Shown one piece after another: positions 11,096 to 42,865 of a stretch of DNA of 42,865 bases (its first letter is position 1; each line of letters starts with the position of its first letter). The stretch comes from a virus. Both the position numbers and the translations under genes were made by a program. Under the pieces are notes generated by a model. That model worked only from the letters and a program-made list of their open reading frames with translations, made no database searches and was not told the origin of the DNA. The stretch lies in IMG/VR virus record IMGVR_UViG_3300028800_000164, positions 1-42,865 of that record; one strand, given 5' to 3'.

Positions 11096-13795
11096 ATGTC
11101 GATTACTACGACGGGGAATTTAGGGCCGATGATCCTTAGCATGAGGGATCTTTAAACTCTTTCTGATTGAGGTGGAAGTCCAGAATGTAACTGGATGACA
11201 CTGCGGAAGGTGAAAACCACCGTAAACGACTAAGCGAAAGAGACGCCGGGAGGCGTGTGCGATAGTCTAAACTCTATGGAGACATAGAGAGATCGAGTCG
11301 AAGAACTTGATCCGCCTAGGGAACTAGGTCATAAAAGTAATAGCTCGTCAAAGCTTAGCTCCGGCTATGCTTTACGTCCCTACCCCAACTATGAACTATT
11401 AACTTTAAATGTAGTTCTAAAATCTTTGGTAATTGACTTGGAAGCCCGACAGGGTAACAAGGGGCAAGTTTGAATACAGCCTGAACGACTAAACCCAGAG
11501 ACCCGAAAGGGATGCGATAGTCTGGACACTACGAATAAAAAAAGGTAGTGAGAGCGATCCGAAGAGGTTGCTCCGCCTAGAAATAGGTCTAAAAGTAACA
11601 GAATGATTCTCGTGTGCGACAAAGTGTCGATGCCAGCTAATGGCGGGACTACTTGCCGTTTCATGAGACCAAGAGCTTTGGTTCCTCCTACTGTCCAGTT
11701 GGGGAACTCGGGGATTGATCCCCCAGCTCAGGTGCCACAACGCGACATCATTGATGCGCAAATGGCATTCTTCGGGACAGGCTGCATTTTAGATTGTGCA
11801 GCATGATTTGGCGTAAAAAAAAGAATTAACGAACAGGTAATTTTACAAGACCAAGAGGGAGTTCTCGCTTGGGTTTCTGAAAGATTAGCTGTGGCGATGC
11901 GCCAAGCCGAGGATAGAGATAATGTCCTCGATAAACTAACTCTGATTGACTTGGAAACCCGACAGGGTGACAAGGGCCAAGGGGTTCAATTAGCAGAAGG
12001 AACTAAATGTTCGAAATCAGCTTTAAGAAAGCCTTTAGCATTAAGACGGCACATCTCGACTCGGATGTCTTCTCTAATAGCTATTGTCTCTGGATCGAGG
12101 GGAGTATGAGCGCCGAAACCTTTTTGGGTGTAAGTGGCTCGGAACTGAAGGATCAGTTCGGCTTGCCTCTTTTTAAGAACGAGGTAGGGCAGCAGCTGCG
12201 TACACAGGTCGACAAGGCGATGGCCTTGTATTACCCACTCGTAGATGTATCGTTCGTGTATCCCGTTTTTCTTGAAGATAGAGCGTTTGTGTTTCTTGGA
12301 TTTGTGATTCATGTTGGCAAAATGCTCCTCAATCCAATCAAAAAGTTCTTTTCTCGTGTTAGAGATATTAAGAACAGATCGAAAGTTGGGGTTTTTGTAT
12401 CGGTTGTATTTGGCGGGATTCACTCTGTAAATGCAGAGAGAACCCTCTCCATCGACGATACCAGCAAGATAGGCCAGTTTGAGGGGATCATAAATAACTT
12501 TTTCGTATTCGATAATTGGCATTCGCAAGCTCCTTGTGTGTAGTTGCATGTACATTGTCGCATATGGGCTAATTAAACGCCAGGCTGAACGACTAAGTGA
12601 GATAGCGCCGAAAGGTGATGCGATAGTCTGAGCAAGAACTATAAATAAAATTCTTGAGGGAGATCCGAAGAGGTTTCCCCGCCAACTATAAGGGAATTCC
12701 GAATAGTTGGTCATAAAAGTAACAGTGTGCTTATCCTCCGTGATTATATTGTTTCGGCGGCTAGCCAGATCAATGCAGGGGGGGGGTCTAATGGAGACAA
12801 TCCCACAAATTTGGGAGTCTCTGACTTCTCGTTAGTGGCGACTACTCTCGATACTAATAACGCTTATAAATTTATGAGCGGTATCGAAGGTATGGACAGG
12901 TTTAAAATACCAGACCTGTATAAATTTTGGGTAATGGACTTGGAGTGCCTGGCTGCTTAAGCAGAGGTTAACAAGGGGCAAGATTATGGATATGGTTGGG
13001 TATATAATCGCTGAAGCAGACGGGAAATGTTTCATGTGTGGAAACTATTGCATGGAATGTGGATGTTGGTGCAAGGGATTGGATTTTTCTTACCTAGAAA
13101 ATAATCAGCCTGAACGACTAAACCCCGAGACTCACGATGCATAAATGTACTGATGGAAGGCTCTTTGTAGAAGGAAATCAACTGTCTTGGTTTGATATTT
13201 TAAAAGGTTGGTCTTTTTTAAGAGTCGTCCGCTGTCCTCTATGCAAAAAGAGATGCGATAGTCTGAGCCAAGCGAATATATGAAGGCTTGGAGAGCGATC
13301 CGAAGAGGTTGCTCCGCCATTTTGTTGAGGTCAACGAAATGGTCATAAAAGTAACAGAAAAGTGGTACCGGTCCAGTACGCTCTGCATATTTTATGCTGA
13401 GTTCTACTGAGCTTCAAACGGATTTTGATGGTTTAACTGGTTCAGGATTCCTGTCCCAGTGGAACTATCCAACAAATGCTTCGGCACTTCCGAGCGAGTA
13501 CGGTTCTGTGTTTAACATCAGAATCTTAACTAGCTCTGAGGCTCCCGTTGCACGCGCGTCGTCTAAAAATGGTAACGATGTTTACTACAACTCTGTTGTT
13601 GGTAAGCAAGCGATCACGCATATAAATCAGGATGGTTATTCCATGAACCTGATCTATCGTGATCCTTACTATTCTGGGATGTTAGCACAGAATGCCACTT
13701 TGGCGGTCAAGTTCGCGCAAGCGCAGGCGATCACCCAAGATACAGCTATTAGAAACCTACTTTGCACTAGACTCAGCTCTAGCGCAGGACCATAG
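11096..13795 (+). CDS. Major capsid protein, N4-gp56 family, five exons
   Basis: Exons by my reconstruction: 11096-11136, 11348-11399, 11606-11914 (minus 11788-11823), 12730-12902 and 13363-13795. The joined frame is 972 nt, 323 residues, the usual length for the family. Family-like blocks are VCDKVSMPANGGTT, LGNSG, NEQVILQDQ, MRQAED, LRDYIVSAASQIN, GSNGDNPT and FGTGPVRSAYF. Each group I junction was set by P1 pairing with a U.G pair, a terminal intron G and frame conservation. Unspliced mRNA would make only a 19-residue peptide, so splicing is essential for the virion. The stop is followed by the RBS of the next gene. Confidence 0.85.
11137..11347 (+). ncRNA. Group I intron 1 in the capsid gene (211 nt)
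   Basis: 5' exon GATCCT pairs with the guide GGGATC (P1, with U.G at the cut). The core has TGGAAGTCC, GACTAAG and GATAGTC (P7 strands), and the 3' end is AGTAATA plus GCTCG, terminal G. P10 pairs the first bases of exon 2 with the guide. It has no ORF; at about 210 nt it is a minimal self-splicing intron. Confidence 0.85.
11400..11605 (+). ncRNA. Group I intron 2 in the capsid gene (206 nt)
   Basis: 5' exon GAACTAT pairs with GTAGTTC (P1, U.G at the cut). The core reads TTGACTTGGAAGCCC, GACTAAACC, GGGATGCGATAGTC; the 3' end is AGTAACA plus GAATG, terminal G. Exon 3 ATT pairs in P10. The downstream ATG at 11603 is partly intronic and is not a true start. Confidence 0.87.
11788..11823 (+). 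other. Coreless 36-nt intron-like insert in capsid exon 3
   Basis: The 5' exon end GCTGCAT can pair with the guide GTGCAGC (11796-11802), giving a seven-pair P1 with U.G at the cut. The first exon bases after the final G (AATT, 11824-11827) pair with the guide flank GATT (11792-11795) as P10. Between guide and 3' end there are only about 21 nt, with no P3-P8 core. The insert holds an in-frame TGA (11804-11806); exact removal joins TGC AT and A ATT and restores the family sequence and frame. Its tail has GATTTGG, like TAATTTGG in the portal insert at 42173-42205. Confidence 0.7.
11915..12729 (+). ncRNA. Group I intron 3 in the capsid gene (815 nt) with antisense LAGLIDADG gene
   Basis: 5' exon GAGGAT pairs with GTCCTC (P1, U.G). 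The core is TTGACTTGGAAACCC before the insertion and GACTAAGT, GGTGATGCGATAGTC after it; the 3' end is AGTAACA plus GTGTG. P10 uses TTATC of exon 4. The homing endonuclease gene sits in a peripheral loop between the two core halves, on the strand opposite to the intron. Confidence 0.87.
11986..12522 (-). CDS. LAGLIDADG homing endonuclease, antisense within intron 3
   Basis: A 178-residue single-motif LAGLIDADG enzyme: LAYLAGIVDGEGSLCI near the N-terminus holds the catalytic helix and acidic residue. The rest has the family's usual basic strands (NISNTRKELFDWIEEHF, LPYLVLKKRQAELIL). Single-motif members act as homodimers cutting intronless alleles. The start at 12522 is chosen because AAGGAG lies 8 nt upstream. 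The gene runs against the intron and host gene, so it needs its own promoter and cannot be translated from capsid mRNA. Confidence 0.88.
   Translation of the reverse strand: MPIIEYEKVIYDPLKLAYLAGIVDGEGSLCIYRVNPAKYNRYKNPNFRSVLNISNTRKELFDWIEEHFANMNHKSKKHKRSIFKKNGIHERYIYEWVIQGHRLVDLCTQLLPYLVLKKRQAELILQFRATYTQKGFGAHTPLDPETIAIREDIRVEMCRLNAKGFLKADFEHLVPSAN
12986..13144 (+). CDS. 52-residue Cys-rich ORF in intron 4
   Basis: ATG at 12986 with AAGGGG upstream. The peptide has six Cys in a short span (CFMCGNYCMECGCWC), compatible with zinc binding. It continues through the conserved core segment CTGAACGACTAAAC, so its C-terminus is read from ribozyme core. No homologue recognised; it could be a remnant of a zinc-finger endonuclease domain or an intron-stabilising peptide (speculative). 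Confidence 0.45.
   Translation: MDMVGYIIAEADGKCFMCGNYCMECGCWCKGLDFSYLENNQPERLNPETHDA
13137..13283 (+). CDS. 48-residue zinc-finger-like ORF in intron 4
   Basis: ATG at 13137 overlaps the stop of the previous ORF. The peptide has a CPLCKKRC knuckle near its C-terminus and an aromatic middle (LSWFDILKGWSFL). It fills the loop between the two P7 strands and reads out through the conserved GATGCGATAGTCTGAGCC core. Function unknown; coding is supported mainly by the overlap and the Cys pattern. Confidence 0.4.
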   Translation: MHKCTDGRLFVEGNQLSWFDILKGWSFLRVVRCPLCKKRCDSLSQANI

Positions 13796-13805
13796 GAGAT
13801 TATAT

Positions 13806-14933
13806 ATGGCTGAATATTCAAGAATGGCAAGTGGAACATTTACTACTGCTGCATCTCCGGTGACGCAGTTTGTCAATCTTCCTTTTCAACCGCAAAGAGT
13901 AAAATTAGTAAATACTACATCTTACACTGCCCCTGCCCAATACGCAGTAACAACTGCTGAATGGGATATTAACATGGGACAAGGTACTTCTGTTATGGAG
14001 TATCTAGAATCTGCCAGCGCTCCTTGGATCGTTGCGGCTGATTCCGTTGCTTCTGCCGGTATTAGTACTTTTGCCGCGGGAAAAATGTTGCAGTATGGAC
14101 CACAGCTCCAAGTTGCAAGTACAACAAAAGCCACAAATACTATCACCACAGCAAGTGCTCACGGACTTTCTACTGGGGATGTTGTGATCTTAGAAGGTAT
14201 GTTCCAGTCTTCAACTACTGGCGTACCCCAAATTTCATTGATGCCTTTTGTTATTACTGTAACAAGTACTACAGCATTTACTATCAACTGGAACATGAAC
14301 CAATCTAACTATACCAACCTCAGTGGATCACCTGCTGGTGCGTATGTTAGAAAAGTTTTGTATCCTTATGTTTTTGAGCCTGGTGTCAACTTCATCAGTG
14401 CTATTGATCTGTCAGGTACTAACGTAAAAATTACTACCACAGCTAACCATAACTACGTTGTGGGTCAAGAGGTTGGGTTTAGAATTCCAACAGCGTTTGG
14501 GTCTACTCAGCTCAACTCTCTGCCAAATGGTAGCGTCCCTGGATCTCCAGTATACTACTATGTGACAGCCCTAAATAGTAATACGCAGTTTACTTGCAGT
14601 GCTTTATCAGCTGGGGTGACTGCATATGCGTCTAACCTAACTGTAGCGCAAATGGTGGGTCAAAGCTTACCACAGGTGGTTTCAGTAGGCGACGTAAACA
14701 GTGGTGGAGTTGCATATAGTGGCGGGGCTCTATACCCATCGCCAGTATTCCCGACATCTTCGGGAGGCACCTCTAGCATTAACGGTCCTGCTATTAGTGG
14801 GGCTTTTGTTAATAACACTTCTCAAGGATTCCTTGTTGGGCTGGGAGTTGGTGCTGTACAAAGCAGCGCTCTTCTTCTGACTGCATCGAGCGTATACTTG
14901 TGGGAGGCTTTCCTATACGATTATGGGTCTTAA
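13806..14933 (+). CDS. Virion protein with FCCH-like beta domain
   Basis: A 375-residue Thr/Ser/Gly-rich beta protein; ATG at 13806 with AGGAG 7 nt upstream. A segment near residue 100 (TTASAHGLSTGDVVILEGM) has the pattern annotated in phages as the ubiquitin-activating-enzyme FCCH-like domain. The C-terminal part (TTANHNYVVGQEVGFRIP through PQVVSVGDVNSGG) is paralogous to the whole of the protein at 15065. Position after the capsid gene suggests a head decoration or connector role. Confidence 0.65.
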   Translation: MAEYSRMASGTFTTAASPVTQFVNLPFQPQRVKLVNTTSYTAPAQYAVTTAEWDINMGQGTSVMEYLESASAPWIVAADSVASAGISTFAAGKMLQYGPQLQVASTTKATNTITTASAHGLSTGDVVILEGMFQSSTTGVPQISLMPFVITVTSTTAFTINWNMNQSNYTNLSGSPAGAYVRKVLYPYVFEPGVNFISAIDLSGTNVKITTTANHNYVVGQEVGFRIPTAFGSTQLNSLPNGSVPGSPVYYYVTALNSNTQFTCSALSAGVTAYASNLTVAQMVGQSLPQVVSVGDVNSGGVAYSGGALYPSPVFPTSSGGTSSINGPAISGAFVNNTSQGFLVGLGVGAVQSSALLLTASSVYLWEAFLYDYGS

Positions 14934-14951
14934 CATTCATAATTGAAAATG

Positions 14952-15037
14952 GCGAAGAATCCTAGGCGATGTCTTCGCAAGTCGTCGGCTTAAAATGCCG
15001 AGGCGCAGGAGGGATGGGGGATCAGTCCTCCATTCCC
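14952..15037 (+). terminator. Three consecutive hairpins between virion genes
   Basis: GCGAAGA/TCTTCGC (14952-14978), CGGC/GCCG (14986-15000) and the longer GGGATGGGGGA with TCCTCCATTCCC (15011-15037), followed by TTTCCTGTTTTA. The last stem with its T-rich tail could be a weak terminator. The row may instead mark mRNA processing between the capsid-side genes and the next gene. Confidence 0.45.
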
Positions 15038-15064
15038 TTTCCTGTTTTAACTTAAAGGATACTC

Positions 15065-15499
15065 ATGGGTTATAATCCACCTCTTTTGTATGGGCCGATT
15101 GCCCCCGAAAACAATCCGCCGATCAACCCTCAATATTACAAGCCCAGCGTATTCGATATCTCCGCAATCTCCTTGGGAAATACAACAACTGTCACTACAA
15201 CGGTCGACCATAATTATGTCGTGGGACAGACGGTGCGACTGTTGATTCCGATGATTTACGGATCTTTTCAGCTTAACGAGCAGATGGCTAACGTGATTTC
15301 TATCCCTTCTAGCACACAAGTCGCTTTAAACCTCGTTTCGACCGATTCTAAAGCATTTGTTTCTAATCCAACCTCTGGTACTACTCAACCTCAGATAGTG
15401 GCCGTAGGTGACGTTAATAGCGGTCAAATAAATTCTATGGGTCGCTCAAATAACGGTAATTATATTCCCGGAAGCTTCATAGACATCTCTCCTCTCTGA
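15065..15499 (+). CDS. Virion protein paralogous to the C-terminus of the 13806-14933 product
   Basis: A 144-residue protein. HNYVVGQTVRLLIP, QLNEQ and PQIVAVGDVNSG align with the C-terminal domain of the gene at 13806, so a domain duplication is visible within the window. A Pro-rich N-terminus (PPLLYGPIAPENNPPINP) precedes it. Probably a structural protein built on the same beta fold. Confidence 0.65.
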   Translation: MGYNPPLLYGPIAPENNPPINPQYYKPSVFDISAISLGNTTTVTTTVDHNYVVGQTVRLLIPMIYGSFQLNEQMANVISIPSSTQVALNLVSTDSKAFVSNPTSGTTQPQIVAVGDVNSGQINSMGRSNNGNYIPGSFIDISPL

Positions 15500-15573
15500 A
15501 AATCAAGCTTTTGCGTGACCTCAAGGAAATGGTCGCCCTCTAGCGTAAATAATTTCTTTAATGTTATTGCATT

Positions 15574-15598
15574 GTAAAGATTCAATTTTAATCTTTAC
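15574..15598 (+). promoter_or_regulatory. Hairpin directly upstream of the RBS of 15608
   Basis: GTAAAGATT (15574-15582) and AATCTTTAC (15590-15598) form a perfect 9-bp stem with a 7-nt loop, ending just before AGGTGATAC and the ATG. It resembles the hairpins before 16256 and 25263 in form and place. Confidence 0.5.
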
Positions 15599-15607
15599 AG
15601 GTGATAC

Positions 15608-16192
15608 ATGACAGAGAATTCTAAACCGAAAGTTAATAGTAACGCTCAAAAGGAACTAGACAGAGCTGAAAAGCACTTCGAACAGTTTAGCAGTGAAGTG
15701 AAAAACCTCACGCTAGATCGAATGAATGAAGCTCCTAAAGAGGAACTGGAACCTCAAACAAAGCTTTCTTCCAAAGAAATTTCAAAATCGAATATTCCTT
15801 TCCTGAAACCTAAAAAGACCGTCAGTTGTAAAGAAAAGTTCAATGAAGCCCATAGAGCAGATTACGAGTTTGCCAAAGAACGAGTAAACTTCGTTGCGGA
15901 AAACAACGAGCTCATTGGAGAGACGATTGACATATGGACCAGACCTTTTCCTGGGATTCCGGCAGAAGAATGGGAAGTTCCGACCAATAAACCGGTCAAT
16001 GGGCCCAGATACCTTGCTGAGCAAATCAAAAGATGCACCTATCACCGCCTTGTAATGCAAGATAGAGTAGTGTCTACGGCTTCCGAGGGTTCTTATACAG
16101 GTCAAATGATTGCGGATACGATCAAGCAAAGGTTGGATGCTCATCCAGTCAGTGACAAAAAATCAGTATTTATGGGGGCTAGCAGTTTTTAG
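15608..16192 (+). CDS. Hypothetical virion-region protein
   Basis: A 194-residue charged protein with a helical, Lys/Glu-rich N-terminal half and a more globular C-terminal half (PFPGIPAEEWEVP, EQIKRCTYHRLVMQDR). No family recognised. It lies between beta-rich structural genes and is flanked on both sides by AT-rich hairpins. Possibly a minor virion or assembly protein. Confidence 0.6.
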   Translation: MTENSKPKVNSNAQKELDRAEKHFEQFSSEVKNLTLDRMNEAPKEELEPQTKLSSKEISKSNIPFLKPKKTVSCKEKFNEAHRADYEFAKERVNFVAENNELIGETIDIWTRPFPGIPAEEWEVPTNKPVNGPRYLAEQIKRCTYHRLVMQDRVVSTASEGSYTGQMIADTIKQRLDAHPVSDKKSVFMGASSF

Positions 16193-16212
16193 TCCGTAGG
16201 TAGCGATAGAAA

Positions 16213-16250
16213 ACCTACATTTGTTAAATTTTAATTTAACTAGTGTAGGT
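16213..16250 (+). promoter_or_regulatory. Strong double-stem hairpin containing GTTAAATTTTAATTTAAC
   Basis: Outer ACCTACA/TGTAGGT (7 bp) encloses the 18-nt palindrome GTTAAATTTTAATTTAAC (16223-16240). It ends 5 nt before the TTG start at 16256, so it could mask or present that start. The identical 18-mer recurs at 25228-25245. Confidence 0.55.
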
Positions 16251-16255
16251 AATTC

Positions 16256-17419
16256 TTGAATCTTCTTAGCGATATCATCACTTACGTACGCCGCATCATA
16301 AAGAGCCCTTCTAATGCTCAGATTACCGATAATCTAATCATAGATTATATCAATCGGTTTTGGCTTTTAGATGTCGATGCCAGAGTTCAGTTGTTCGATC
16401 TTAAGACCAAGTATCAGTTCCAAACGACACCTGGAATAGCCGACTACAACATGCCCTTGTACAACGTACAGACGCAGCCAGGCGCTCAGACCATTGGATC
16501 TTTCCCCGTTTATCAGGGATTCATGCAGGCGTGCTACGCTAACGGCATTCAAGTTCCCTTTTATACTCAGAGAGATCCTTTCTGGAACCTTTGGCCTAAT
16601 TACCTTCAATTTGATGCAGAAGCTGCGGTAGGCGATGGAACAGCAGGACCGTATTACATTCCTATACCGTATTTTCCGGCCATTCCAGGACACATTGATA
16701 TTACGGGAATTATTGCGACCGGCAACAATCAAGATCCCCCTCTAGTGACCAATGGGAATTTGATCCCTACTATCCCCACTACGAGTGTGTATTCAGCGGT
16801 CTATTTTACGGCAGTAGGAGCTAATGGACAGAATGTAGTGGTAGCCGATTCAGGGCAGTTTCTTTCCAATAATACCGATGAGAACCTGTATGGGCTTCTG
16901 ATGGAACCCGGATCTGCCCCTTATGGCAATACTGCGTTAGTGGGTGGCTATTCGACTACACTCAATACTGTGAACTATACGCAGGGATATGCCAATGTGA
17001 CCTTCCCCGCAGCTATACCGACAGGAACTCCAATACAGGCTCAGTGTTACTTTTACGAACAGGGACTCCCTAGAGCGCTTTTGTTTTATAACAACTGCAT
17101 TACTATGCGTCCTCCTCCAAATACTCAATACTTAATAGAGATGGATGCCTATCTAACCCCGGCTGCCTTCCTCAATACAGGAAGCGCCATTCCTTTTGGA
17201 TATATGAGTGAGTACTTGGCAAGAGGTGCGGCTAGGAAGATCCTTGCAGACACGGGCGATATGGAACAGTTCCAGTTCTACGAACCCTTATTTAGAGAGC
17301 AAGAAATTCTAGTATGGAAGCGCAGTCAAAGACAATTCACGTCGACTCGTACGGGAACCATATTCAGTGAAATCCAGGGACAATCAGGATACAACAATTT
17401 AGGACAAGGATCGGTATGA
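16256..17419 (+). CDS. Putative head-tail joining / tail adaptor protein
   Basis: A 387-residue protein with TTG start at 16256. The N-terminal segment (DIITYVRRIIKSPSNAQITDNLIIDYINRFW) and the C-terminal helix-rich region (YLARGAARKILADTGDMEQFQFY, FREQE) look like podoviral connector or tail-tubular proteins, with a large beta insert between. The assignment rests on this pattern and on position between capsid and tail genes, not on a firm family match. It overlaps the next gene by 4 nt (ATGA). Confidence 0.5.
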   Translation: MNLLSDIITYVRRIIKSPSNAQITDNLIIDYINRFWLLDVDARVQLFDLKTKYQFQTTPGIADYNMPLYNVQTQPGAQTIGSFPVYQGFMQACYANGIQVPFYTQRDPFWNLWPNYLQFDAEAAVGDGTAGPYYIPIPYFPAIPGHIDITGIIATGNNQDPPLVTNGNLIPTIPTTSVYSAVYFTAVGANGQNVVVADSGQFLSNNTDENLYGLLMEPGSAPYGNTALVGGYSTTLNTVNYTQGYANVTFPAAIPTGTPIQAQCYFYEQGLPRALLFYNNCITMRPPPNTQYLIEMDAYLTPAAFLNTGSAIPFGYMSEYLARGAARKILADTGDMEQFQFYEPLFREQEILVWKRSQRQFTSTRTGTIFSEIQGQSGYNNLGQGSV

Positions 17420-17955
17420 GCGCACCTAACTTTACATATAATTCTAATATTCCTCTTTCAACGCATAATCCTTCTGTTGACCAGCCAATGATGGAGGTTA
17501 ATAATAATAGTATAGCCGGTTATGTTGCTGTGGATCATGTCCCGTTCAATACGTCTGGGAGTGGATGGCACAATCAAGTAACTTTTAGTAATGTCTCTAC
17601 TCAAGCAACTCCTACCGATCCGGTTTCCATCCTTTACACAAAGAATGATGCGGCGGGACATCCCCAATTGAATTTCCTGAACAGCCAAAACTTCACCAAT
17701 ACATTCGCTGGCAATGGAGCGGTTCTCCTCCTGGGGGGACTGATAATCCAATGGGGAACAGGATCAACAACGGGATCTTCATTTGCTTTTCCTATTACTT
17801 TCCCAAATAACTGCTATAGTATGGTTGTTACGGGGACAAGTACGCTATATACGGGAGGATTCGTAGTTTCTGCTCTTTCAAGAACAAACTATACAGTATC
17901 TAGGACTTCGGGAACTGGTGCAACAGGATATTACTATATAGCCGTAGGTAACTAA
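17416..17955 (+). CDS. Tail-fibre-like protein with C-terminal fibre domain
   Basis: A 179-residue protein whose C-terminal 80 residues (GGLIIQWGTGS, then FPITFPNNCYSMVVT, ending GYYYIAVGN) match the common phage tail-fibre tip domain that forms trimers. The N-terminal half is polar and extended. It sits between the putative adaptor and the large tail protein, with 1-4 nt overlaps on both sides. Confidence 0.65.
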   Translation: MSAPNFTYNSNIPLSTHNPSVDQPMMEVNNNSIAGYVAVDHVPFNTSGSGWHNQVTFSNVSTQATPTDPVSILYTKNDAAGHPQLNFLNSQNFTNTFAGNGAVLLLGGLIIQWGTGSTTGSSFAFPITFPNNCYSMVVTGTSTLYTGGFVVSALSRTNYTVSRTSGTGATGYYYIAVGN

Positions 17956-35360: not shown

Positions 35361-35425
35361 TTTTAGTCCTGATGTTATTGTTTTTTCTTTCTCCCTTGGG
35401 TTACAGCCTGAGGGAGTCTTTTCTA

Positions 35426-35454: not shown

Positions 35455-35483
35455 CAGTCCTCGAAGGTTTCTGCGTTAATCGC

Positions 35484-35516: not shown

Positions 35517-35603
35517 CTATTTATTTAAATCAACACAAAATGAAAAGTTATGGAGGAAAATTCTCTTCCTATATATGCTAACGTTTTGAAAAAACAGGAA
35601 AGT

Positions 35604-35792
35604 ATGAAGTTAAAAGATTATTTAGATTCCAGAAACTTAGGTTATAAGGAATTTTCCGACATGATCGGCATAAGTCAAAGCGCTCTTTCCAACTACATTC
35701 ACTTCAGGAGAGAGCCCCGAAAGGCCATAAGAAACAAAATAATAAAAGTCACCAAGGGAAAAGTCAGCTTGCAAGATCTGCTGCCCAGTTAA
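35604..35792 (+). CDS. Cro/C1-type HTH regulator
   Basis: A 62-residue protein, start at 35604 with AGGA 6 nt upstream; an upstream ATG at 35550 lacks an RBS. The HTH is KEFSDMIGISQSALSNYIHFRREP, the standard XRE fold, and the short length fits a Cro-like repressor. Divergence from the early operon suggests it controls the promoter at 35426-35454. Confidence 0.8.
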   Translation: MKLKDYLDSRNLGYKEFSDMIGISQSALSNYIHFRREPRKAIRNKIIKVTKGKVSLQDLLPS

Positions 35793-35847
35793 AAATAAAA
35801 CTTAACAAAAAAAACCGTTAGCACTATGAAAAGACTAGCGGGGTTGC

Positions 35848-36261
35848 ATGATACAGCTAGAAATTCCTTGGGAGCCTACTTCTTGGCTAGCTCCCATTAA
35901 GGGAAAATATGTCTTTTACGATCCGAGGGCTTCTGAAAAGAAAGCCACTCGATTCCTCATAAGTCAAACCTACACCGATCCCCCTCTCACTGTCCCCACA
36001 GTTATAGAATTCACTTTCCACTTTAGAATCCCAAAGTACGCTTCTAAAAAAAAGCGCTCCGACATGCTAGCCGGCAGAGTCATCCCAACGAAAAAAGACG
36101 TCTCCAATCTCGTGAAGCTCTACGAGGACTGTTTAAAAAAAATTGTTATAGACGATGACAGAAACGTAGCAAAAATATTTTCAGAAAAGCTATACGCTGA
36201 AAAAGACATGACCATCATTAAGGTATACACACTCGAAGAATATGCGAACAATCGCCGATGA
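35848..36261 (+). CDS. RusA-like Holliday junction resolvase
   Basis: A 137-residue protein with the RusA pattern: KKDVSNLVKLYEDCLKKIVIDDDRNV with the acidic cluster that binds metal, then a KLYAEKDMTIIKV strand. RusA enzymes cut four-way junctions made in replication and recombination, consistent with the RecT/YqaJ pair. A stem (CCGTTAG/CTAGCGG) directly upstream may partly cover its RBS. Confidence 0.85.
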   Translation: MIQLEIPWEPTSWLAPIKGKYVFYDPRASEKKATRFLISQTYTDPPLTVPTVIEFTFHFRIPKYASKKKRSDMLAGRVIPTKKDVSNLVKLYEDCLKKIVIDDDRNVAKIFSEKLYAEKDMTIIKVYTLEEYANNRR

Positions 36262-36427
36262 AGTAGATGGAAGTTTCTACGTTGATATCGTTCTATCCCC
36301 AGACGAAACTAAGCGCATTAGACAAATGGAAATGATCCAAGGGGAAATGATTTTGAGACGAAGGAAATATTACATAGGAGTAAGACTTCATGGCCACTGG
36401 GATGAAGAAGAAAAAGAAGACGTATGA
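36242..36427 (+). CDS. Small hypothetical protein
   Basis: A 61-residue charged protein overlapping the RusA gene by 20 nt. No domain recognised. The tight overlap chain with its neighbours supports coding. Confidence 0.5.
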   Translation: MRTIADEVDGSFYVDIVLSPDETKRIRQMEMIQGEMILRRRKYYIGVRLHGHWDEEEKEDV

Positions 36428-36542
36428 GCTGAAAGATGCCTTAGTAGGGATAGGGTCTAAGCACCCACCCACTCACATGCCTAGAGCATTCCTAATAGTT
36501 ATTTGGGAGCTGATGAAGGCTAAAACGAGAATAAAAAATTAG
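36390..36542 (+). CDS. 50-residue basic protein
   Basis: ATG at 36390 (AGGAG upstream) within the end of the preceding gene. Basic N-terminus (KKKKKTYELKDALVG), then a helix (AFLIVIWELMKAK). No known family. Confidence 0.45.
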   Translation: MATGMKKKKKTYELKDALVGIGSKHPPTHMPRAFLIVIWELMKAKTRIKN

Positions 36543-36562
36543 AGGAGAAGGTAGAAAAAATT

Positions 36563-36712
36563 ATGCCACTGAAAAAAGGAAGCAGCAAGAAAGTTGTCAG
36601 TGAAAACATCAGAGAAATGCAGGCGAGTGGACATCCTCACGTCCAAGCTGTAGCCTCTGCCTTGAGCACTGCGAGCAAATCTACCGCAGCTCGCAAACCA
36701 AAAAAGAAATGA
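36563..36712 (+). CDS. DUF6496-like small protein
   Basis: A 49-residue protein beginning MPLKKGSSKKVVSENIREM, then SGHPHVQAVASAL and a basic tail. This pattern is frequent in phage genomes as a small protein of unknown function (DUF6496-type, from memory). It overlaps the next gene by 4 nt. Confidence 0.65.
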   Translation: MPLKKGSSKKVVSENIREMQASGHPHVQAVASALSTASKSTAARKPKKK

Positions 36713-36906
36713 ACGAGCAAATTTGTTTCGTCTGTGAAATGACTAAATATCCTCCAGAAAAGATACAGGATCATGACTTCTTTTACGAGAGAAAAAACGA
36801 GTTTTATCCCGACGACGATTACGGAAACTTTGCCTTCGTTTGCCCTGAATGTCACGAAAAAATCAAACTTTATTATTTAAATAAAATAATAGACTTTGAT
36901 ACATGA
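36709..36906 (+). CDS. Zinc-finger-like small protein
   Basis: A 65-residue acidic protein with CFVC near the N-terminus and CPEC in the C-terminal half, a likely four-Cys zinc site. The two halves flank an acidic Tyr/Asp segment (FYPDDDYGNF). Function unknown. Confidence 0.6.
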   Translation: MNEQICFVCEMTKYPPEKIQDHDFFYERKNEFYPDDDYGNFAFVCPECHEKIKLYYLNKIIDFDT

Positions 36907-36943
36907 GAGATAGAGTATAAACATTTTTTTAAGGAAAAAATTT

Positions 36944-37084
36944 ATGGCACACAAAAAGAAAGCCCACGAAAAAGAAATGCACAAGGGCAAGCATCATAAA
37001 GAACATGAGCATGAAATGCACCACGAAAAGAAACATGCGATGAAAAAAGCTCCCATGAAAAAACACGCAGGTCGTGGCAAGTAA
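36944..37084 (+). CDS. His/Lys-rich 46-residue protein
   Basis: ATG at 36944 with AAGGA upstream. Roughly a quarter of the residues are His and over a third Lys (KGKHHKEHEHEMHHEKKH). It might bind metal or nucleic acid. The TAATG junction with the next gene suggests coupling. Confidence 0.5.
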   Translation: MAHKKKAHEKEMHKGKHHKEHEHEMHHEKKHAMKKAPMKKHAGRGK

Positions 37085-37218
37085 TGGACAAGCTCATTAA
37101 ACGGGGTTTCGAAAGAGTTAAAAAGGTCGCCTCCCGAGAAGAGAAAGATCTAGTGAAGAAAGATAAGGTTCGTGATAGAAAATGCGAGCACGCCGAAAAA
37201 AAGGCCAAGCGCAAATGA
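37084..37218 (+). CDS. Lys/Arg-rich 44-residue protein
   Basis: Starts within the TAATG stop/start of the His-rich gene. Strongly basic helix (KRGFERVKKVASREEKDLV). Probably nucleic-acid binding by charge; no family. Confidence 0.45.
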   Translation: MDKLIKRGFERVKKVASREEKDLVKKDKVRDRKCEHAEKKAKRK

Positions 37219-37290
37219 TCTTATCAGCCAGGAACGTATCTAAACTTAGACTAAACGATTTCTTTGTAACAGCGCACAGGATGGTATTGA

Positions 37291-37602
37291 GTGCTCTCTA
37301 CACCAATCTCGCAGCCAGCAAAAGATTCGAATTTAACAATAACGGTCGGTAAATCCAAAATTGTAGATAAAAATACAAATAAGGAAAGAGTCTACCGTTA
37401 TTCCGATATCCCGACGGATGAGTACAAATGGGTGTACAATCTTTTGTACAAGCCCATACCTTTTGATCTTCTGCACCTCAAACTCAATGAGACCCTTAAA
37501 GTCAAGTCGGGTTGGTGGAATGGGGAAGACTGGGAAGGCCTGCGACTGAAAACAGACGAAAAAATAATAGCTTGGAAAAGAAATCATGAGTTCGAGCAAT
37601 AA
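37291..37602 (+). CDS. Hypothetical protein
   Basis: A 103-residue protein starting with GTG at 37291. Mixed alpha/beta (LTITVGKSKIVD, YRYSDIPTDEYKWVYNLLY, SGWWNGEDWEGL). No domain recognised. It overlaps the next gene by 17 nt. Confidence 0.55.
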   Translation: MLSTPISQPAKDSNLTITVGKSKIVDKNTNKERVYRYSDIPTDEYKWVYNLLYKPIPFDLLHLKLNETLKVKSGWWNGEDWEGLRLKTDEKIIAWKRNHEFEQ

Positions 37603-37726
37603 AAAAGAAAAAATGAATTTAGAATTTAACTTTTTATTCTCTTTACTGATTTATTTCTTTATAGCCTCTCTAAGCGCATTCTTCACATTACTATCAATCT
37701 ACCTATACAAAGGCCTCACAACATGA
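37586..37726 (+). CDS. Small membrane protein
   Basis: A 46-residue protein from ATG at 37586, overlapping neighbours at both ends. One long hydrophobic helix, residues about 13-40 (FNFLFSLLIYFFIASLSAFF). Function unknown. Confidence 0.5.
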   Translation: MSSSNKKEKMNLEFNFLFSLLIYFFIASLSAFFTLLSIYLYKGLTT

Positions 37727-37953
37727 GCGCAGCAGAATATATCGAGTATTCAATAACAGTAAAAGACGAGCACAATACGCTGTCTAAAAAGGAAATATCG
37801 TACGAGCCTCTACTTCTCAGCAAGAATGATGAGACACTCGCAATGGCCGTAGAACAGCTATTTCGGAAGTTTAAAGAGAACCAGGTAGGCGAACCCTATG
37901 AAGTTGAAGCCCCTGAAATAATCCTCAAGTTCAAGATGGTTTGGCAGGCGTAA
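37723..37953 (+). CDS. Hypothetical protein
   Basis: A 76-residue acidic protein, coupled by ATGA to the membrane protein gene and ending tail-to-tail, with 23 nt shared, against the reverse-strand gene at 37931. No domain recognised. Confidence 0.55.
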   Translation: MSAAEYIEYSITVKDEHNTLSKKEISYEPLLLSKNDETLAMAVEQLFRKFKENQVGEPYEVEAPEIILKFKMVWQA

Positions 37954-38128
37954 TATCCCTTGCGTCACTCAGAAGCTCCAACATTAGCGGGTTGTTTCTT
38001 AGATACTGCCCAAAAAGGTAACAAAGAAAAGCAGAAACGCTCTCGCGCCTCACACGCGCCACTAATCTGAGATCCGCGTACTCCTCATGGGTTAAATTAA
38101 TAGTCACACGCTTCCATTCCTTTCTCAT
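37931..38128 (-). CDS. Ribbon-helix-helix-type small protein
   Basis: A 65-residue protein reading VTINLTHEEYADLRLVARVRRESVSAFLCYLF: a strand followed by two helices as in CopG/Arc repressors. Probably a dimeric DNA-binding regulator of the local reverse-strand unit. Confidence 0.6.
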   Translation of the reverse strand: MRKEWKRVTINLTHEEYADLRLVARVRRESVSAFLCYLFGQYLRNNPLMLELLSDARDITPAKPS

Positions 38129-38271
38129 TGAAGTTCTCCCGTTGTTAAATAATGATAGGCGCTCTCTAAATCAAAACATATCGAACCCTCTTGCAAGAGG
38201 AGGGAAAACCCCTCTTCTTCAGCCTTTTCGTAAGCGGCCTCAATAATCTTATCGTTTTCGTGACAGCTCAT
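38125..38271 (-). CDS. 48-residue acidic protein
   Basis: ATG at 38271, stop overlapping the ribbon-helix-helix start (ATGA). Acidic helical peptide (DKIIEAAYEKAEEEGFSLLLQ). Tight coupling to both neighbours supports coding. Confidence 0.5.
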   Translation of the reverse strand: MSCHENDKIIEAAYEKAEEEGFSLLLQEGSICFDLESAYHYLTTGELQ

Positions 38272-38552
38272 ACCATATCCTCTTTTTTCTTTCTTAAATT
38301 ATAAGTCAAAGCCCTAACGGAGCTTTTGATTGTGTCGTAATAAGAGCCCGCATGGTAATCCGAACACCAATCATGCTTATCGTTCTCGTGGCGAACATTC
38401 ACACAATGCGCCTCATCAGGGGCGTAATAAGGCGTTATCCAAGTTATAACCATCCCTTCAAACCTAGCCACATACGCACGAGTCTTTCCATGCTCATAAG
38501 GTTCCACTCCAGCAAACTTCTCAACGGCTTTCTTTAAATTAATATGCTTCAT
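38268..38552 (-). CDS. Hypothetical protein
   Basis: A 94-residue protein, start at 38552 (AAGGA upstream) rather than the longer hydrophobic-leading frame. Contains TRAYVARFEGMVITWITPYYAP and several His/Asp. Divergent from terS, with a GTTATG/CATAAC inverted repeat between them. No family recognised. Confidence 0.55.
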   Translation of the reverse strand: MKHINLKKAVEKFAGVEPYEHGKTRAYVARFEGMVITWITPYYAPDEAHCVNVRHENDKHDWCSDYHAGSYYDTIKSSVRALTYNLRKKKEDMV

Positions 38553-38669
38553 CTTTTTTTTCCTTGTTGCTTGCGTTATGACAAACATAATAGCATAACT
38601 GCGATTAAATACAAGACATAAAAATTCATTTAATGCTAAATACTGAAAATGAAGGGTTAAAACAATTAT

Positions 38670-39086
38670 ATGACAGAAGAAAAAAAGAAGTTCGGCGGAA
38701 AGCAAGAAGGCGCAGGTCGCCCCCCAAAAGAGATTAATTGGACTCTCTTTGAAGACCTATGCTCCCTTCAATGCACCCAATCAGAAATATGCTCTGTTTT
38801 GCACGTACACGACGACACCCTAAGATCCAAAGTTAAAGAGTATTACGAAGAAGATTATTCGGCTGCATATAAGAGATTTTCAGAAGGCGGAAAATCAAGT
38901 CTCAGACGTATTCAGCTCAACTTAGCCAAGAAAAACCCAGGAATGGCCATATTCTTAGGAAAACAATGGCTAGGGCAAAAAGACAATCACGACGTAGTGC
39001 AGATCTCCCCTGAAATGGCCCAGCAATACGAGGCGGTCATGAATCAGTTGAAGCAGATGCAGAAAGCTCCCGCATTGTCTGCTTAA
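38670..39086 (+). CDS. terS: Terminase small subunit-like protein
   Basis: A 138-residue protein with a basic N-terminus (GAGRPPKE), a helix-turn-helix (LCSLQCTQSEICSVLHVHDDTL) and the usual C-terminal LAKKNPGMAIFLGKQWLGQKD segment of small terminases. It recognises packaging sites and pairs with terL at 39591. Two reverse-strand genes separate it from terL. Confidence 0.82.
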   Translation: MTEEKKKFGGKQEGAGRPPKEINWTLFEDLCSLQCTQSEICSVLHVHDDTLRSKVKEYYEEDYSAAYKRFSEGGKSSLRRIQLNLAKKNPGMAIFLGKQWLGQKDNHDVVQISPEMAQQYEAVMNQLKQMQKAPALSA

Positions 39087-39327
39087 ACGTTTCAAAAGAC
39101 TCGGCTTGGAGTAGAGCCGCGCTGCCCAGCCCTTCAGCTATCTTTTTAGCATGTTCTTTGTTGTCCTGAGAGAATATAAAAGCAGCCAACACCGCCTGCA
39201 TAATGTAAAAAATATGCGAGTTCTTATGCCCCTCCAAGAGATCGCCGATCTGACCGCTTACTCGTTGGATCACTTCAAGATCTCCCTTGGGAAGCACGTC
39301 AATGATGCGAGTTTCTTCCATATTCAA
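39037..39327 (-). CDS. Hypothetical protein inserted between terminase genes
   Basis: A 96-residue helical protein (HIFYIMQAVLAAFIFSQDN, KIAEGLGSAALLQAESF) overlapping the end of terS by 50 nt on the other strand. Coupled by a 4-nt overlap to the gene at 39324. No family recognised. Confidence 0.55.
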   Translation of the reverse strand: MNMEETRIIDVLPKGDLEVIQRVSGQIGDLLEGHKNSHIFYIMQAVLAAFIFSQDNKEHAKKIAEGLGSAALLQAESFETFKQTMRELSASASTDS

Positions 39328-39566
39328 CCTTTCTTTAAAATATTTAATATGATTAGCATAAAGTATTGTAGATCCACATTAAGAGCGAAGGAGAATTTTT
39401 CATGCTGAGGAAGTGTCTCGAAATAATTAACCTGAGCCTCGAGCTGCTCGATAAGCTCGTCTCGAGTAACGCCTTTGTTGTCTTCCTTATTCTCCTCAAC
39501 TTCTTTGTCTACGGCTACGTTATTTACACCTTCATCTTTGACATGATCGGACATGTGTTCATTCAT
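39324..39566 (-). CDS. Hypothetical acidic protein
   Basis: An 80-residue Glu/Asp/Val-rich protein with a hydrophobic C-terminal stretch (LQYFMLIILNIL). First of the two reverse-strand genes lying between terS and terL; its promoter must lie in the 24 nt before terL or within terL. Confidence 0.5.
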   Translation of the reverse strand: MNEHMSDHVKDEGVNNVAVDKEVEENKEDNKGVTRDELIEQLEAQVNYFETLPQHEKFSFALNVDLQYFMLIILNILKKG

Positions 39567-39590
39567 TTCAACGGCTCAGTTTAAGGGTTC

Positions 39591-40919
39591 ATGCAAAATC
39601 TAGCACCAAAACAGCTAAAATTTATTTTAGAGTCAACAAAAAAGATCAACTTGGCTCATGGATCGGTGAGATCCGGCAAGACGGTGTGCACGCTCTTTCG
39701 CTTCATGCAAGCGGTAGATGAGTGCCCAGACTCCCAAATATGGATGATAGGACACACGGCCTCTACGATCTACGACAATGCTGTAAGACTCATCATAGAG
39801 CCTAAAGACAAGGGAGTTCCCGATCCTTTGGCTTTGTTTAGAGGCAGATGCCATTGGATGAAAGGGGATAGGGAGCTATGCTTCACTGATTCTAGGGGCA
39901 ATCTTAAGCGGATCTCAACGGTTGGAGCCAGGGACGCGGGAGCGGTAGGAGCCATTCAAGGAAAGACCATGAGCTTGGTCTACTGCGATGAGATGACGCT
40001 CTATCCCAATATGATTATCGAGATGATAAGCACTCGTATATCGAATCCCCATTCCATGCTATTTGCCTCTATGAACCCGTCATATCCATCCCACATTTTA
40101 AAGAACTGGATTGATAAGGCAAGAGGTGGCGATCCGGATTATTACGAGCTGCACTTTCACCTAGACGACAACCCTTTTGTCGATGAAGGCTATAAAACCC
40201 GTGTAAAAAACAGCCTGTCTGGGATATATTACAAGCGACTTTACTTAGGAGAGTGGACGCTTGCTGAAGGAGCCATTTTTGATTTCTTTGATCGCTCTGT
40301 ACATGTGGTCAGTCGCGCGCCTCGGGCTGCGGACTACTGGATTGCTGGGGTGGATTATGGAACTAATAACGCCTTTGCTGCTCTCCTTGTTGGCGTGTCT
40401 ACTGGGAAATATGCCCAAGAAAAGGCCATGATGTGGGTCGAGAAAGAATACTATTGGGATCATCGCAAGAAGGGATTCCAAAAGAGCAGCTCGGAGTTTG
40501 CCAGTGATCTCAAAGCGTTTATGGCTCCTTATGGCGTTAGGAACGTGTATATTGATCCTAGTGCCGTCGCCTACCGGGTGGATCTCCAACGATTGGCTAT
40601 TCATCCTGTTAATGCTGATAACGACGTTGGTAACGGAATTATTTCTATGACGTCGAAGTTGAAAGATGGCCAGCTGTTCATCTGTTCCGAGTGTACGAAC
40701 TTAATTAGAGAGATTGAGAGCTACGTTTGGCATCCTAAATGCCTGGAGAAGGGCGAAGATGAGCCCTTAAAGGCCGAAGATCATGCGGTTGATGCGCTCA
40801 GATATGCCGTAAACACCCACAAGCCTCCTAGATTCGATCAAACAAGCGGAAGGACTCTAGGCAGGCCCGATGAGTTAGATCCTAATTGGAGGCATCCTAA
40901 TGACTTTGGATTCAGATGA
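39591..40919 (+). CDS. terL: Terminase large subunit
   Basis: A 442-residue packaging ATPase/nuclease. Walker A GSVRSGKT (24-31), Walker B LVYCDE (about 128-133), coupling-motif region ASMNPSYP, then the RNase H-like nuclease with VDYGT, YIDPSA and DHAVDALRYA carrying the metal-binding acids. It drives DNA into the prohead through the portal. It overlaps the next gene by 4 nt. Confidence 0.93.
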   Translation: MQNLAPKQLKFILESTKKINLAHGSVRSGKTVCTLFRFMQAVDECPDSQIWMIGHTASTIYDNAVRLIIEPKDKGVPDPLALFRGRCHWMKGDRELCFTDSRGNLKRISTVGARDAGAVGAIQGKTMSLVYCDEMTLYPNMIIEMISTRISNPHSMLFASMNPSYPSHILKNWIDKARGGDPDYYELHFHLDDNPFVDEGYKTRVKNSLSGIYYKRLYLGEWTLAEGAIFDFFDRSVHVVSRAPRAADYWIAGVDYGTNNAFAALLVGVSTGKYAQEKAMMWVEKEYYWDHRKKGFQKSSSEFASDLKAFMAPYGVRNVYIDPSAVAYRVDLQRLAIHPVNADNDVGNGIISMTSKLKDGQLFICSECTNLIREIESYVWHPKCLEKGEDEPLKAEDHAVDALRYAVNTHKPPRFDQTSGRTLGRPDELDPNWRHPNDFGFR

Positions 40920-41119
40920 CCTATAAATGCCCGCACTGCGGAAAAATAACCGAGTGGCCGGTTGGATGGGCCTTAGTTCCGGTGATTTCCGAATCGGGTG
41001 AGGAAAAGGTTCTATATTTCTGTCCCGCCTGGATTAGTGAGCATTGCAAGGAGTTTGGCAGGTCGGAGCAGGTAGAGGAAGAGATAGAGGGGGGCAAAAT
41101 ATGGCCATCCAGAAGTTAG
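40916..41119 (+). CDS. Zinc-ribbon protein downstream of terL
   Basis: A 67-residue protein with CPHCG at the N-terminus and CPAWISEHC further on, a split zinc ribbon. It is coupled to terL (ATGA). Function unknown; similar small proteins often trail terminase genes. Confidence 0.6.
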   Translation: MTYKCPHCGKITEWPVGWALVPVISESGEEKVLYFCPAWISEHCKEFGRSEQVEEEIEGGKIWPSRS

Positions 41120-41207
41120 GGGAGGCTATTCGTCTGCTCATGGACTAGTCCGGAACGATGAAGCCCAGTACTAATCTTGAGTCTACCCATTTTCAGTCCC
41201 TTTCTCT

Positions 41208-41351
41208 ATGTTTCAGCTGGTTTTATCCCACACAACCGAATATGTCAATGCAAATCTGATCCAAATCGAGCGCTTCAAGAAAAATACGGTCGAGGCCGAC
41301 GAATTCTGGTTTCCCTACAACTCCAAAGGGTTTGGATTCTTCCAGTTGTAG
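41208..41351 (+). CDS. Possible 47-residue ORF crossing the repeated segment
   Basis: ATG at 41208; the product has protein-like composition (LIQIERFKKNTVEADEFWF) and ends at a TAG in the repeat, also found at 118-120. There is no clear RBS, and the reverse strand carries the ParB C-terminus here. It could instead be the 3' end of a larger gene lost upstream. The 100 nt before it show only fragments. Confidence 0.3.
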   Translation: MFQLVLSHTTEYVNANLIQIERFKKNTVEADEFWFPYNSKGFGFFQL

Positions 41352-41357
41352 ACGTTT
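41232..41357. repeat. Internal copy of the left-end repeat
   Basis: Identical to 1-126. Downstream of here the sequence is an alternative version of 127-1584. Confidence 0.85.
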
Positions 41358-41376
41358 TTTTCTCACAACGTTCCCG

Positions 41377-41601
41377 ATGTGGATTCTCATTGGGTTATTT
41401 TTCATTCTTTTAACAATTTTAGATTTTGCTCTAAATACAATAACAAAAATGATGCCAGATTCGGATAAAGAAGTCAATGGGACATCTAGCCTAAATAAAA
41501 TATTTAGTGATACTCTTGCCTCAAGAGTAATAGTTCTAATTATTCTTAGTTTCATATATAATAACCCTCATTATTCTGGGGGTTTGTGTCAAAAGAAGTA
41601 A
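41377..41601 (+). CDS. Two-helix membrane protein (intact in this allele)
   Basis: A 74-residue protein: helix one about residues 1-20 (MWILIGLFFILLTILDFAL), a polar loop (DSDKEVNGTSSLNKIFSD) and helix two (RVIVLIILSFIY). The ATG lacks an RBS; a TTG at 41332 gives 15 extra residues. Its C-terminal half matches the remnant at 1097-1219. It overlaps the HNH gene by 16 nt. Confidence 0.5.
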   Translation: MWILIGLFFILLTILDFALNTITKMMPDSDKEVNGTSSLNKIFSDTLASRVIVLIILSFIYNNPHYSGGLCQKK

Positions 41602-42059
41602 AAGTTTATTTCGGTAAAAAATTCTACCTTCAGTCTAGTGGCTATTGGGTCAACTGGATGCCCATCCACGCCCAGCGCTGGGTTTGGATCTGTCATAATG
41701 GTATGCCTCCCGATGGTATGGATGTTCATCACAAAAATGGCGATAAAGGGAATAATGAAATAGAGAATCTTGAGCTTTTAAATCGCTCTGACCATTTAAA
41801 AAAGCATTGGGAAGAAGGACGTTTTGATTTAGAAAAAAGACGCCTTCAACTCGACAAGGTTCGGCCTATCGATTGGTTGAAGAGCGATGAGGGCAGAAGG
41901 GCAATTAGCGAAAAGGGCAGGGCGGTTTGGAAAGAAAGAAAGGCGACGGCTATTGCCTGCGGATATTGTGGTAAGCAGGCCTTTTTTAAGAGGTGGGCCA
42001 GATTTTGTTGCAAAAGCTGCTACATGAAATGGAGGCATCGCGCGGGGTTGTGTAAATAA
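41586..42059 (+). CDS. HNH homing endonuclease with zinc-ribbon tail
   Basis: A 157-residue protein from GTG at 41586 with GGGGG upstream. The HNH site is HAQRWVWICHNGMPPDGMD, then VHHKNGDKGNNEIENLELL. The C-terminus has CGYCGKQ and CCKSC, a probable DNA-binding zinc ribbon. It lies 45 nt before the portal start codon of this allele and is absent from the other allele. The adjacent portal gene carries an intron and a mini-insert that it may help spread. Confidence 0.85.
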   Translation: MSKEVKVYFGKKFYLQSSGYWVNWMPIHAQRWVWICHNGMPPDGMDVHHKNGDKGNNEIENLELLNRSDHLKKHWEEGRFDLEKRRLQLDKVRPIDWLKSDEGRRAISEKGRAVWKERKATAIACGYCGKQAFFKRWARFCCKSCYMKWRHRAGLCK

Positions 42060-42104
42060 AATTTATAATATACCATCCATTATATAAGAAATTAGGAGGT
42101 ATAT

Positions 42105-42865
42105 ACGTCTTTTTACTACCCACCTTGGAATAATGCACTTGAGCCCAATCAAGGGAATGTAAGACAGTGGCTTTAATGTCGGGCCACTTAATTTGGAATT
42201 CGTGGTGACAATTTATATTCCAAGTTTCAGCCTTGATCTAGGGGCTGATAAAACCATCTCTAATTGACTTGGAAGCCTAAACCGAAAGGCATGGCGACAG
42301 GGCGGAAGCTGTAAGCACCGTGAGAGACTAAACGAGAAGGCCCGAAAGGGATGCGATAGTCCGATCCGAACAACGAAAGGTTCGGAGGTTGGCAGAAATG
42401 ACTAACCCCGCCGTTAGGCGAGTAACAATTTGATAGAGCAAAGCCGCTGGAACCAGTCCAATATTGATACTCTGTTTTACGCAGGGGCGCAGGACTTTAT
42501 TAACCGAAACTTCGGTACGGCGAACGTCTCCCAATACGGCAAGTTCTACTTCAATTTGCTGCAACAACCTGTAAATATGGTCACAGGCTATCAAAGGCAG
42601 CATCGCAAATCTTTTAATTATATTCCTTGCGAAGGGGCCGATACTCAAACGACGGACCAGTATACACGACTAATGGCGCACGTTGCTAATGCTGAAGGTA
42701 TTCACGAGCAGTTCTCTCGTGCCTGTGAGCAATCGGCTATCACGGGAATGGTTCTTTTGCAGCCATACCTTGATTACACTGGAGATGATCCAGCACAAGG
42801 TCAATTAAAAGTGAAGCTGTGGGAGTACAATTCATTTCTAGTAGATCCGTATTTCCGCAACTACG
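42105..42865 (+). CDS. Portal protein, second version (5' part only, interrupted, cut by window end)
   Basis: The same N-terminus as the gene at 1183, with many synonymous differences. Exons are 42105-42172, 42206-42233 and 42433-42865. Only two amino-acid changes are seen in the part after the intron (Ala to Ser and Thr to Ala). The codon in the start position is ACG, 5 nt after AGGAGG; no in-frame ATG or GTG is near. From 42739 it is identical to the first copy. Confidence 0.8.
42173..42205 (+). other. Coreless 33-nt intron-like insert in portal allele B
   Basis: The 5' exon end AGTGGCT pairs with GGCCACT (42182-42188), a seven-pair P1 with U.G at the cut. After the final G (42205) exon bases TGACA pair with TGTCG in the guide flank (42177-42181), a five-pair P10. 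Only 17 nt lie between guide and 3' end, so there is no ribozyme core. Two in-frame TAA codons lie inside. Exact removal gives CTT GAC AAT, matching the uninterrupted allele at 1249-1257. The tail has TAATTTGG, as in the capsid insert. Confidence 0.75.
42234..42432 (+). ncRNA. Group I intron in portal allele B (199 nt)
   Basis: 5' exon CAGCCT pairs with GGGCTG (P1, U.G at the cut). The core has TTGACTTGGAAGCC, GACTAAACG and GGGATGCGATAGTC; the 3' end is AGTAACA plus ATTTG. P10 uses TAGA of the next exon. The allele at 1183 shows the same exons joined without it (CAGCCC ATCGAA), which fixes both splice sites. It is closely related to capsid introns 1-4 and has no ORF. Confidence 0.9.
42739..42865. 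repeat. Right-end repeat, identical to 1585-1711
   Basis: 127 nt identical to the inside of the first portal copy; immediately upstream the two copies differ at many codon third positions. It marks where the alternative allele rejoins the main sequence. Confidence 0.85.

Follow-up and report, generated by a model that had tools for sequence, protein, structure and literature searches.

The interrupted genes and their two short inserts

The DNA analysed here is the viral record IMGVR_UViG_3300028800_000164, whose full 42,865 nt we call the window, and its terminase, portal and tail genes identify it as a phage. Its major capsid protein gene and the second of its two portal gene copies are interrupted by two very short inserts, mini1 and mini2, each lying a short distance upstream of a complete group I intron (Table 1). 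The contig is one full turn of a ~41.2 kb genome and ends inside a second strain: positions 1-126 are identical to 41232-41357 (126 bases), and beyond these the HNH and other open reading frames (ORFs) differ. The portal copies at the two ends (1183-3315 and ~42104-42865) are 89% identical; the first is intact and intron-free, and the second-strain copy carries introns. Since the contig ends represent two strains of a ~41 kb phage, mini1 and mini2 come from two closely related phages.

A preliminary description of the window had reported both inserts at the positions given in Table 1, which were confirmed by alignment to capsid homologues and portal genes. The limits of mini1 are set exactly by eighty capsid homologues from viral contigs, all of which lack the insert and read FFGTGC-I^I-NEQVILQD without interruption (the caret marks the insertion point). 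The two inserts have in common a U at the end of the 5′ exon, a P1 of 6-7 bp with a U.G pair, an adjoining P10 and a terminal G. In mini1 the pairings are GCUGCAU/GUGCAGC for P1 (7 bp) and AAUU/GAUU for P10 (4 bp), and the insert brings an in-frame TGA; in mini2 they are AGUGGCU/GGCCACU and UGAC/GUCG, and the in-frame stop is TAA. Dinucleotide shuffles with free boundaries gave p = 0.01 for mini1 and p = 0.0025 for mini2, the latter by way of a near-identical copy in locus L082. The motif RATTTGG, initially offered as the mark of the family and ascribed to both inserts, was not borne out: among capsid tails only that of mini1 in the window carries it, with one more match inside a 972-nt endonuclease-bearing insert, and mini2 reads AATTTGG.

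Coreless inserts in related phages

To see the two inserts in context, the capsid and portal genes of ~410 related loci, falling into three capsid clades and partly picked by sequence, were aligned with a purpose-written spliced protein-to-DNA aligner that ignores splice signals and can place an insert whatever its length. This aligner took the place of a first scan of BLAST gaps, which was dropped as the gaps were mostly ordinary indels. The capsid gene of this family (~320 residues; loci L001-L413) has more than 60 insertion positions and holds up to five inserts per gene. Inserts with no group I core, which we call coreless, were found at 8 sites; capsid genes contributed more than 50 unique examples and portal genes 9. 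The capsid sites are 82.0 (clade C), 88.2 (clades A and B, with 32 unique inserts), 92.2 and 104.2, and the portal sites are 7.1, 22.2, 31.2 and 35.2.

The complete introns of the family are genuine group I introns with the P3/P7 pseudoknot that defines the group. Among 53 distinct aligned introns, P1, P3, P4, P6, P7 and P8 are paired at 98-100% with many changes on both sides of the helix, compared with 15-67% in slid controls, and a core profile hidden Markov model (HMM) matched 168 of 170. Across the family no complete intron is shorter than 195 nt, and the distance from the guide to the 3′ splice site is bimodal, at 14-31 nt in coreless inserts and at least 179 nt in complete introns with none between. 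No true coreless insert was matched by the core HMM, and a P3-P8 core with the P3/P7 pseudoknot was not found in them. Two inserts first called coreless (L105 at site 82 and L241 at site 22) gave core matches and are complete introns. The inserts are therefore not full group I introns, and if the core is absent, self-splicing with guanosine would be impossible for a coreless insert alone, though the claim that the inserts are recognised and removed in the manner of group I introns is not weakened by this.

What the coreless inserts do keep is pairing with their exons. A U at the exon end with a U.G-closed P1 was seen in 51 of 51 capsid inserts, and so was the terminal G. Combined P1 and P10 pairing reached at least 9 in 54 of 55 short inserts, where 1.8 were expected and the most seen in 1000 shuffles with exons and splice ends fixed was 6 of 55, and in none of 197 ordinary in-frame indels. 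This agrees with the first account of the two inserts, which grouped them by a guide that pairs with both exons and by the terminal G, and called for a comparison with shuffled sequence. When boundaries were left free in a dinucleotide shuffle test, 21 of 33 inserts scored at least 9, with 0.85 expected.

At site 88, where 32 unique inserts could be compared, the inserts pair on average better with their own exons than with those of their relatives. P1 pairing was 5.75 of 6 for an insert's own exon and 5.04 after swapping, and for P10 the means were 3.84 of 4 and 3.14, both own values lying above all 5000 swaps. The changes are compensatory at the sequence level, with exon and guide reading UUCGGU/GCCGAA, UUUGGU/GCCAAA or UACGGU/GCCGUA in P1, and 3′ exon and insert reading ACUGG/CCAGU, ACCUA/UAGGU or ACGUA/UACGU in P10.

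A complete intron always lies downstream

The strongest regularity was missed by the preliminary description, which had noted only that the inserts sit beside complete introns. All 53 unique coreless capsid inserts have a core-bearing intron 27-168 nt downstream, which is true of 38 of 170 complete introns (Fisher 7.5e-27), and only 16 of the 53 have one within that distance upstream. The downstream rule also holds in 9 of 9 portal cases. Three loci (L110, L271 and L290) first seemed to be without a downstream partner, and core matches cut by the locus ends showed one in each. The partners themselves vary, with site 88 inserts followed by complete introns at nine different downstream sites, and some partners carry no endonuclease (195-242 nt). 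Coreless inserts were present in 60 of 116 capsid genes with a core inside the gene and in 0 of 19 whose locus has cores only outside it (p = 5e-6). Among loci chosen by portal similarity alone, capsid genes with a complete intron had them in 16 of 28 cases and those without in 0 of 9 (p = 0.005).

Between a coreless insert and its partner lies a microexon that encodes conserved protein and whose length is often not a multiple of three (40, 55 and 91 nt), so that removal of the coreless insert has to be a separate event. The partner would always be downstream because an upstream core would leave along with its own intron.

Probable splicing by the core of a neighbouring intron

These observations suggest that the inserts are non-autonomous group I introns that have no core and rely for splicing on that of the adjacent downstream complete intron, most likely in cis, a reading to which we give a probability of roughly three in four. 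Such an intron would keep only the features of a substrate, namely a P1 formed by the 5′ exon and its own guide and closed by U.G, an adjoining P10, a tail of 14-31 nt and the terminal G. The downstream core would dock the upstream P1 as it docks its own and cut at the U; P10 and the terminal G would then serve in joining exon 1 with the microexon, after which the complete intron would excise itself from the same transcript. This chemistry is possible by analogy with engineered trans-excising ribozymes (PMC4094466). It also seems probable to us, with somewhat less confidence, that the inserts make up a natural class of introns that shed the ribozyme and depend for splicing on the group I core of the intron that follows them on the transcript. 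No such class was found in a literature search covering open-access papers.

Several points weigh against splicing by a neighbouring core. Splicing of the inserts is a prediction from sequence, and co-conversion during homing, not catalysis, could produce the adjacency. The choice among synonymous boundaries favoured good pairing, which was allowed for in the test of 33 inserts and not in that of 55, and single boundaries may be one nucleotide off where distant relatives were aligned. The inserts are related and not all independent events, so the p-values overstate independence. Additionally, loci L288-L314 were found by a short-insert pattern, which biases the count of coreless inserts and not the position of the partner.

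An unlikely alternative is that coreless introns are spliced in trans, whether by complete introns after their excision or by whatever group I core the infected cell contains, with adjacency reflecting co-mobility with a homing intron. Engineered group I ribozymes do excise short segments in trans with the help of P10, as described in PMC4094466 and references therein, and endonuclease-bearing complete introns are common partners whose co-conversion would take a nearby mini along. However, splicing in trans leaves unexplained both the constant downstream position of the partner and the lack of coreless inserts in the 19 genes with cores only elsewhere in the locus, and partners without an endonuclease exist.

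It is very unlikely that the inserts are non-functional remnants of group I deletions, in genes that are broken or in contigs that are assembly or minor-variant artefacts. The tails of some minis resemble the 3′ ends of complete introns, and the inserts do bring stops or break the frame, but they occupy the same sites in dozens of independent metagenomic contigs. Compensatory changes keep their pairing, and neither free drift of P1 and P10 nor frame-broken exons were seen. Capsid and portal are essential, their exons stay 80-98% conserved, and the forms with intact endonuclease ORFs described below are old and maintained.

Translational bypassing, in which the ribosome would hop over the insert, is less probable again. 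Like T4 gene 60 and mitochondrial byp elements, these are short inserts in essential coding sequence with early stops; unlike them, they lack matched take-off and landing codons, since the boundary repeat of at least 3 nt that these require was found in 0 of 55 inserts. Bypassing has no role for the exon U, the terminal G, P1 or P10, all of which belong to group I introns, and inserts of the same kind reach 950-975 nt at site 104. Least probable of all is skipping of the microexon to give a second protein form, with the complete intron using the mini P1, which is well suited to docking by the nearby core, as an alternative 5′ splice site. The mini carries a P10 and a terminal G of its own that fit the start of the microexon, and skipping would often shift the frame and would lose residues conserved in all intact homologues.

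Endonuclease-bearing forms and the origin of coreless introns

At capsid site 104.2, seven phages carry coreless introns of 950-975 nt. Their P1 loop contains an intact LAGLIDADG ORF of the double-motif type (~290 residues), and in guide and tail they agree with the 30-36 nt minis found at that site. These ORFs are kept intact at 33-78% identity. Related LAGLIDADG endonucleases are found at capsid site 123.2 in L128 and L241, in complete introns of 1154-1161 nt that have a P1 loop of 950-958 nt with the ORF and then a normal core of ~197 nt. The sequences can be arranged as a putative series from complete with endonuclease, to coreless with endonuclease, to coreless alone.

The same site can be complete or coreless depending on the phage: portal site 31.2 has a complete intron in the window and a coreless one in L008 and L075, and capsid site 104.2 is complete in some phages and coreless in others. 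Each of the 8 sites also has its own internal guide sequence (IGS). Given these site-specific guides and the two sites found in both states, loss or replacement of the core beside a functioning intron, at several sites, is more likely than the spread of one mini family by transposition. The initial view had been that two independent core deletions leaving the same remnant would be unlikely. We infer that complete introns, some of which had a LAGLIDADG gene in their P1 loop, lost their cores once the core of a neighbour could stand in.

The comparison with miniature inverted-repeat transposable elements (MITEs) made at first is fair as a description of a non-autonomous class, since coreless forms with and without an endonuclease share IGS and tail, and since MITEs and other non-autonomous transposons are likewise short derivatives that keep the recognition ends without the catalytic part. 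The function missing here would differ, being splicing by an RNA.

Relation to known introns

Small phage group I introns, such as those of T4 td and nrdB and the capsid intron of mycobacteriophage LittleE (PMC3706429), likewise have an exon U, a P1 with U.G, a P10 and a terminal G and lie in structural genes. These are complete, the LittleE intron being an ordinary one (PMC3706429), whereas the inserts described here lack the P3-P8 core and are unable to act autonomously. The degenerate group I introns of lichen ribosomal DNA average ~230 nt, do not self-splice, keep core-like folds and are spliced by machinery that is unknown (PMC8527467). They are similar in being shortened group I introns that need removal by something else, and differ in that here the core is wholly gone and a partner core is always adjacent. 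The closest functional analogues are engineered group I spliceozymes and trans-excision-splicing ribozymes, in which a core removes a segment between recognised splice sites: as described in PMC4094466 and the Bell and Testa papers cited in it, they cut an internal segment out of another RNA and join its flanks, and P10 aids the second step. In these engineered ribozymes the guide is on the ribozyme; here the arrangement would be natural, with the guide on the substrate and the core adjacent on the same transcript.

A further likeness is to the group III introns of Euglena plastids, which are minimal, ~100 nt in length, and thought to need parts from other introns, though they derive from group II. 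We know of no group I counterpart of these, nor of any described class of coreless group I introns such as those proposed here. The transition to a shared core is usually invoked for the origin of spliceosomal introns and is otherwise known only from degenerate group II and III organelle introns or from engineered spliceozymes. If splicing by the neighbouring core is correct, the phages would hold a natural case of introns giving up their own ribozyme for a shared core, a group I equivalent of the way in which spliceosomal introns are thought to have become dependent on one. The transition would then be testable in a small system of known chemistry, with one core and two substrates ~40 nt apart. 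Loss of the neighbouring intron would also become lethal in the presence of a coreless one, a form of intron addiction, and coreless forms with LAGLIDADG in the P1 loop would be mobile yet unable to splice alone.

Other features of the window and the family

Table 1. Features of the window, and hairpin inserts in the portal genes of related loci (positions are those of the window unless a locus is named)
Feature	Position	Strand	Details
HNH endonuclease gene outside introns	10250-10966	-	upstream of capsid gene
Major capsid protein gene	11096..13795	+	six exons, interrupted by one coreless and four complete introns; spliced alignment to a relative gives 301/319 identical residues
Complete small group I intron 1, capsid gene	11137..11347	+	211 nt; spliced alignment
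Complete small group I intron 2, capsid gene	11400..11605	+	206 nt; reference for structure check
mini1 P1, 5′ exon strand	11781..11787	+	GCTGCAT, last base U; from sequence
mini1, candidate coreless intron, capsid gene	11788..11823	+	36 nt; loop 8 nt, tail 21 nt; context GGCTGCAT^...^AATTAAC; homologues without insert; predicted joined exons GGCTGCAT^AATTAACGAACAG
mini1 P10, insert strand	11792-11795		GATT
mini1 IGS	11796-11802		GTGCAGC
mini1 P10, 3′ exon strand	11824..11827	+	AATT; from sequence
Complete group I intron, partner of mini1	11915..12729	+	815 nt, 91 nt downstream of mini1; spliced alignment, core HMM
Endonuclease-like ORF inside partner of mini1	11986-12714	-	phrog_5046
Complete group I intron, capsid gene	12903..13362	+	460 nt; spliced alignment
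HNH endonuclease gene outside introns	41586-42059		adjoins portal gene
Second-strain portal gene, 5′ part	42104..42865	+	start approximate; runs off contig end; spliced alignment
mini2, candidate coreless intron, portal gene	42173..42205	+	33 nt; loop 9 nt; context CAGTGGCT^...^TGACAAT; limits from portal alignment; score 12; predicted joined exons CAGTGGCT^TGACAATTTAT
mini2 P10, insert strand	42178-42181		GTCG
mini2 IGS	42182-42188		GGCCACT
Complete group I intron, partner of mini2	42234..42432	+	199 nt, 27 nt downstream of mini2; same intron in L082
Portal hairpin insert, L077-L080	4395-4455
Portal hairpin insert, L090	9020-9067
Portal hairpin insert, L125	2353-2400
Portal hairpin insert, L127	3017-3063
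Portal hairpin insert, L271	7542-7594
Portal hairpin insert, L285	2896-2946
Portal hairpin insert, L145	~2320-2370

The capsid protein had no match in the annotated phage collection, so no cultured relative was found there; six matches were found among genome contigs, in metagenome-assembled genomes of unrelated phyla. The Rfam group I model (Intron_gpI) misses the complete introns at both gathering and relaxed thresholds, the remaining Rfam matches being at chance level apart from one weak match to LOOT RNA. This match lies in the complete portal intron (42274-42407; RF03000, 23.2 bits, E = 0.018), and LOOT itself may represent part of the group I type to which this intron belongs. The introns escape both ORF callers and Rfam, and in this abundant environmental phage family the essential genes for capsid and portal appear broken when annotated.

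A different kind of insert, 47-61 nt long, was seen at one portal site (EQ[A/S]^RW) and kept out of the coreless class. It consists of CGG, a perfect hairpin of 10-13 bp with CGCCC/GGGCG, and then AAAATT. These inserts bring in-frame stops or break the frame, have no P1 or P10, and lie in portal genes that have no complete intron.
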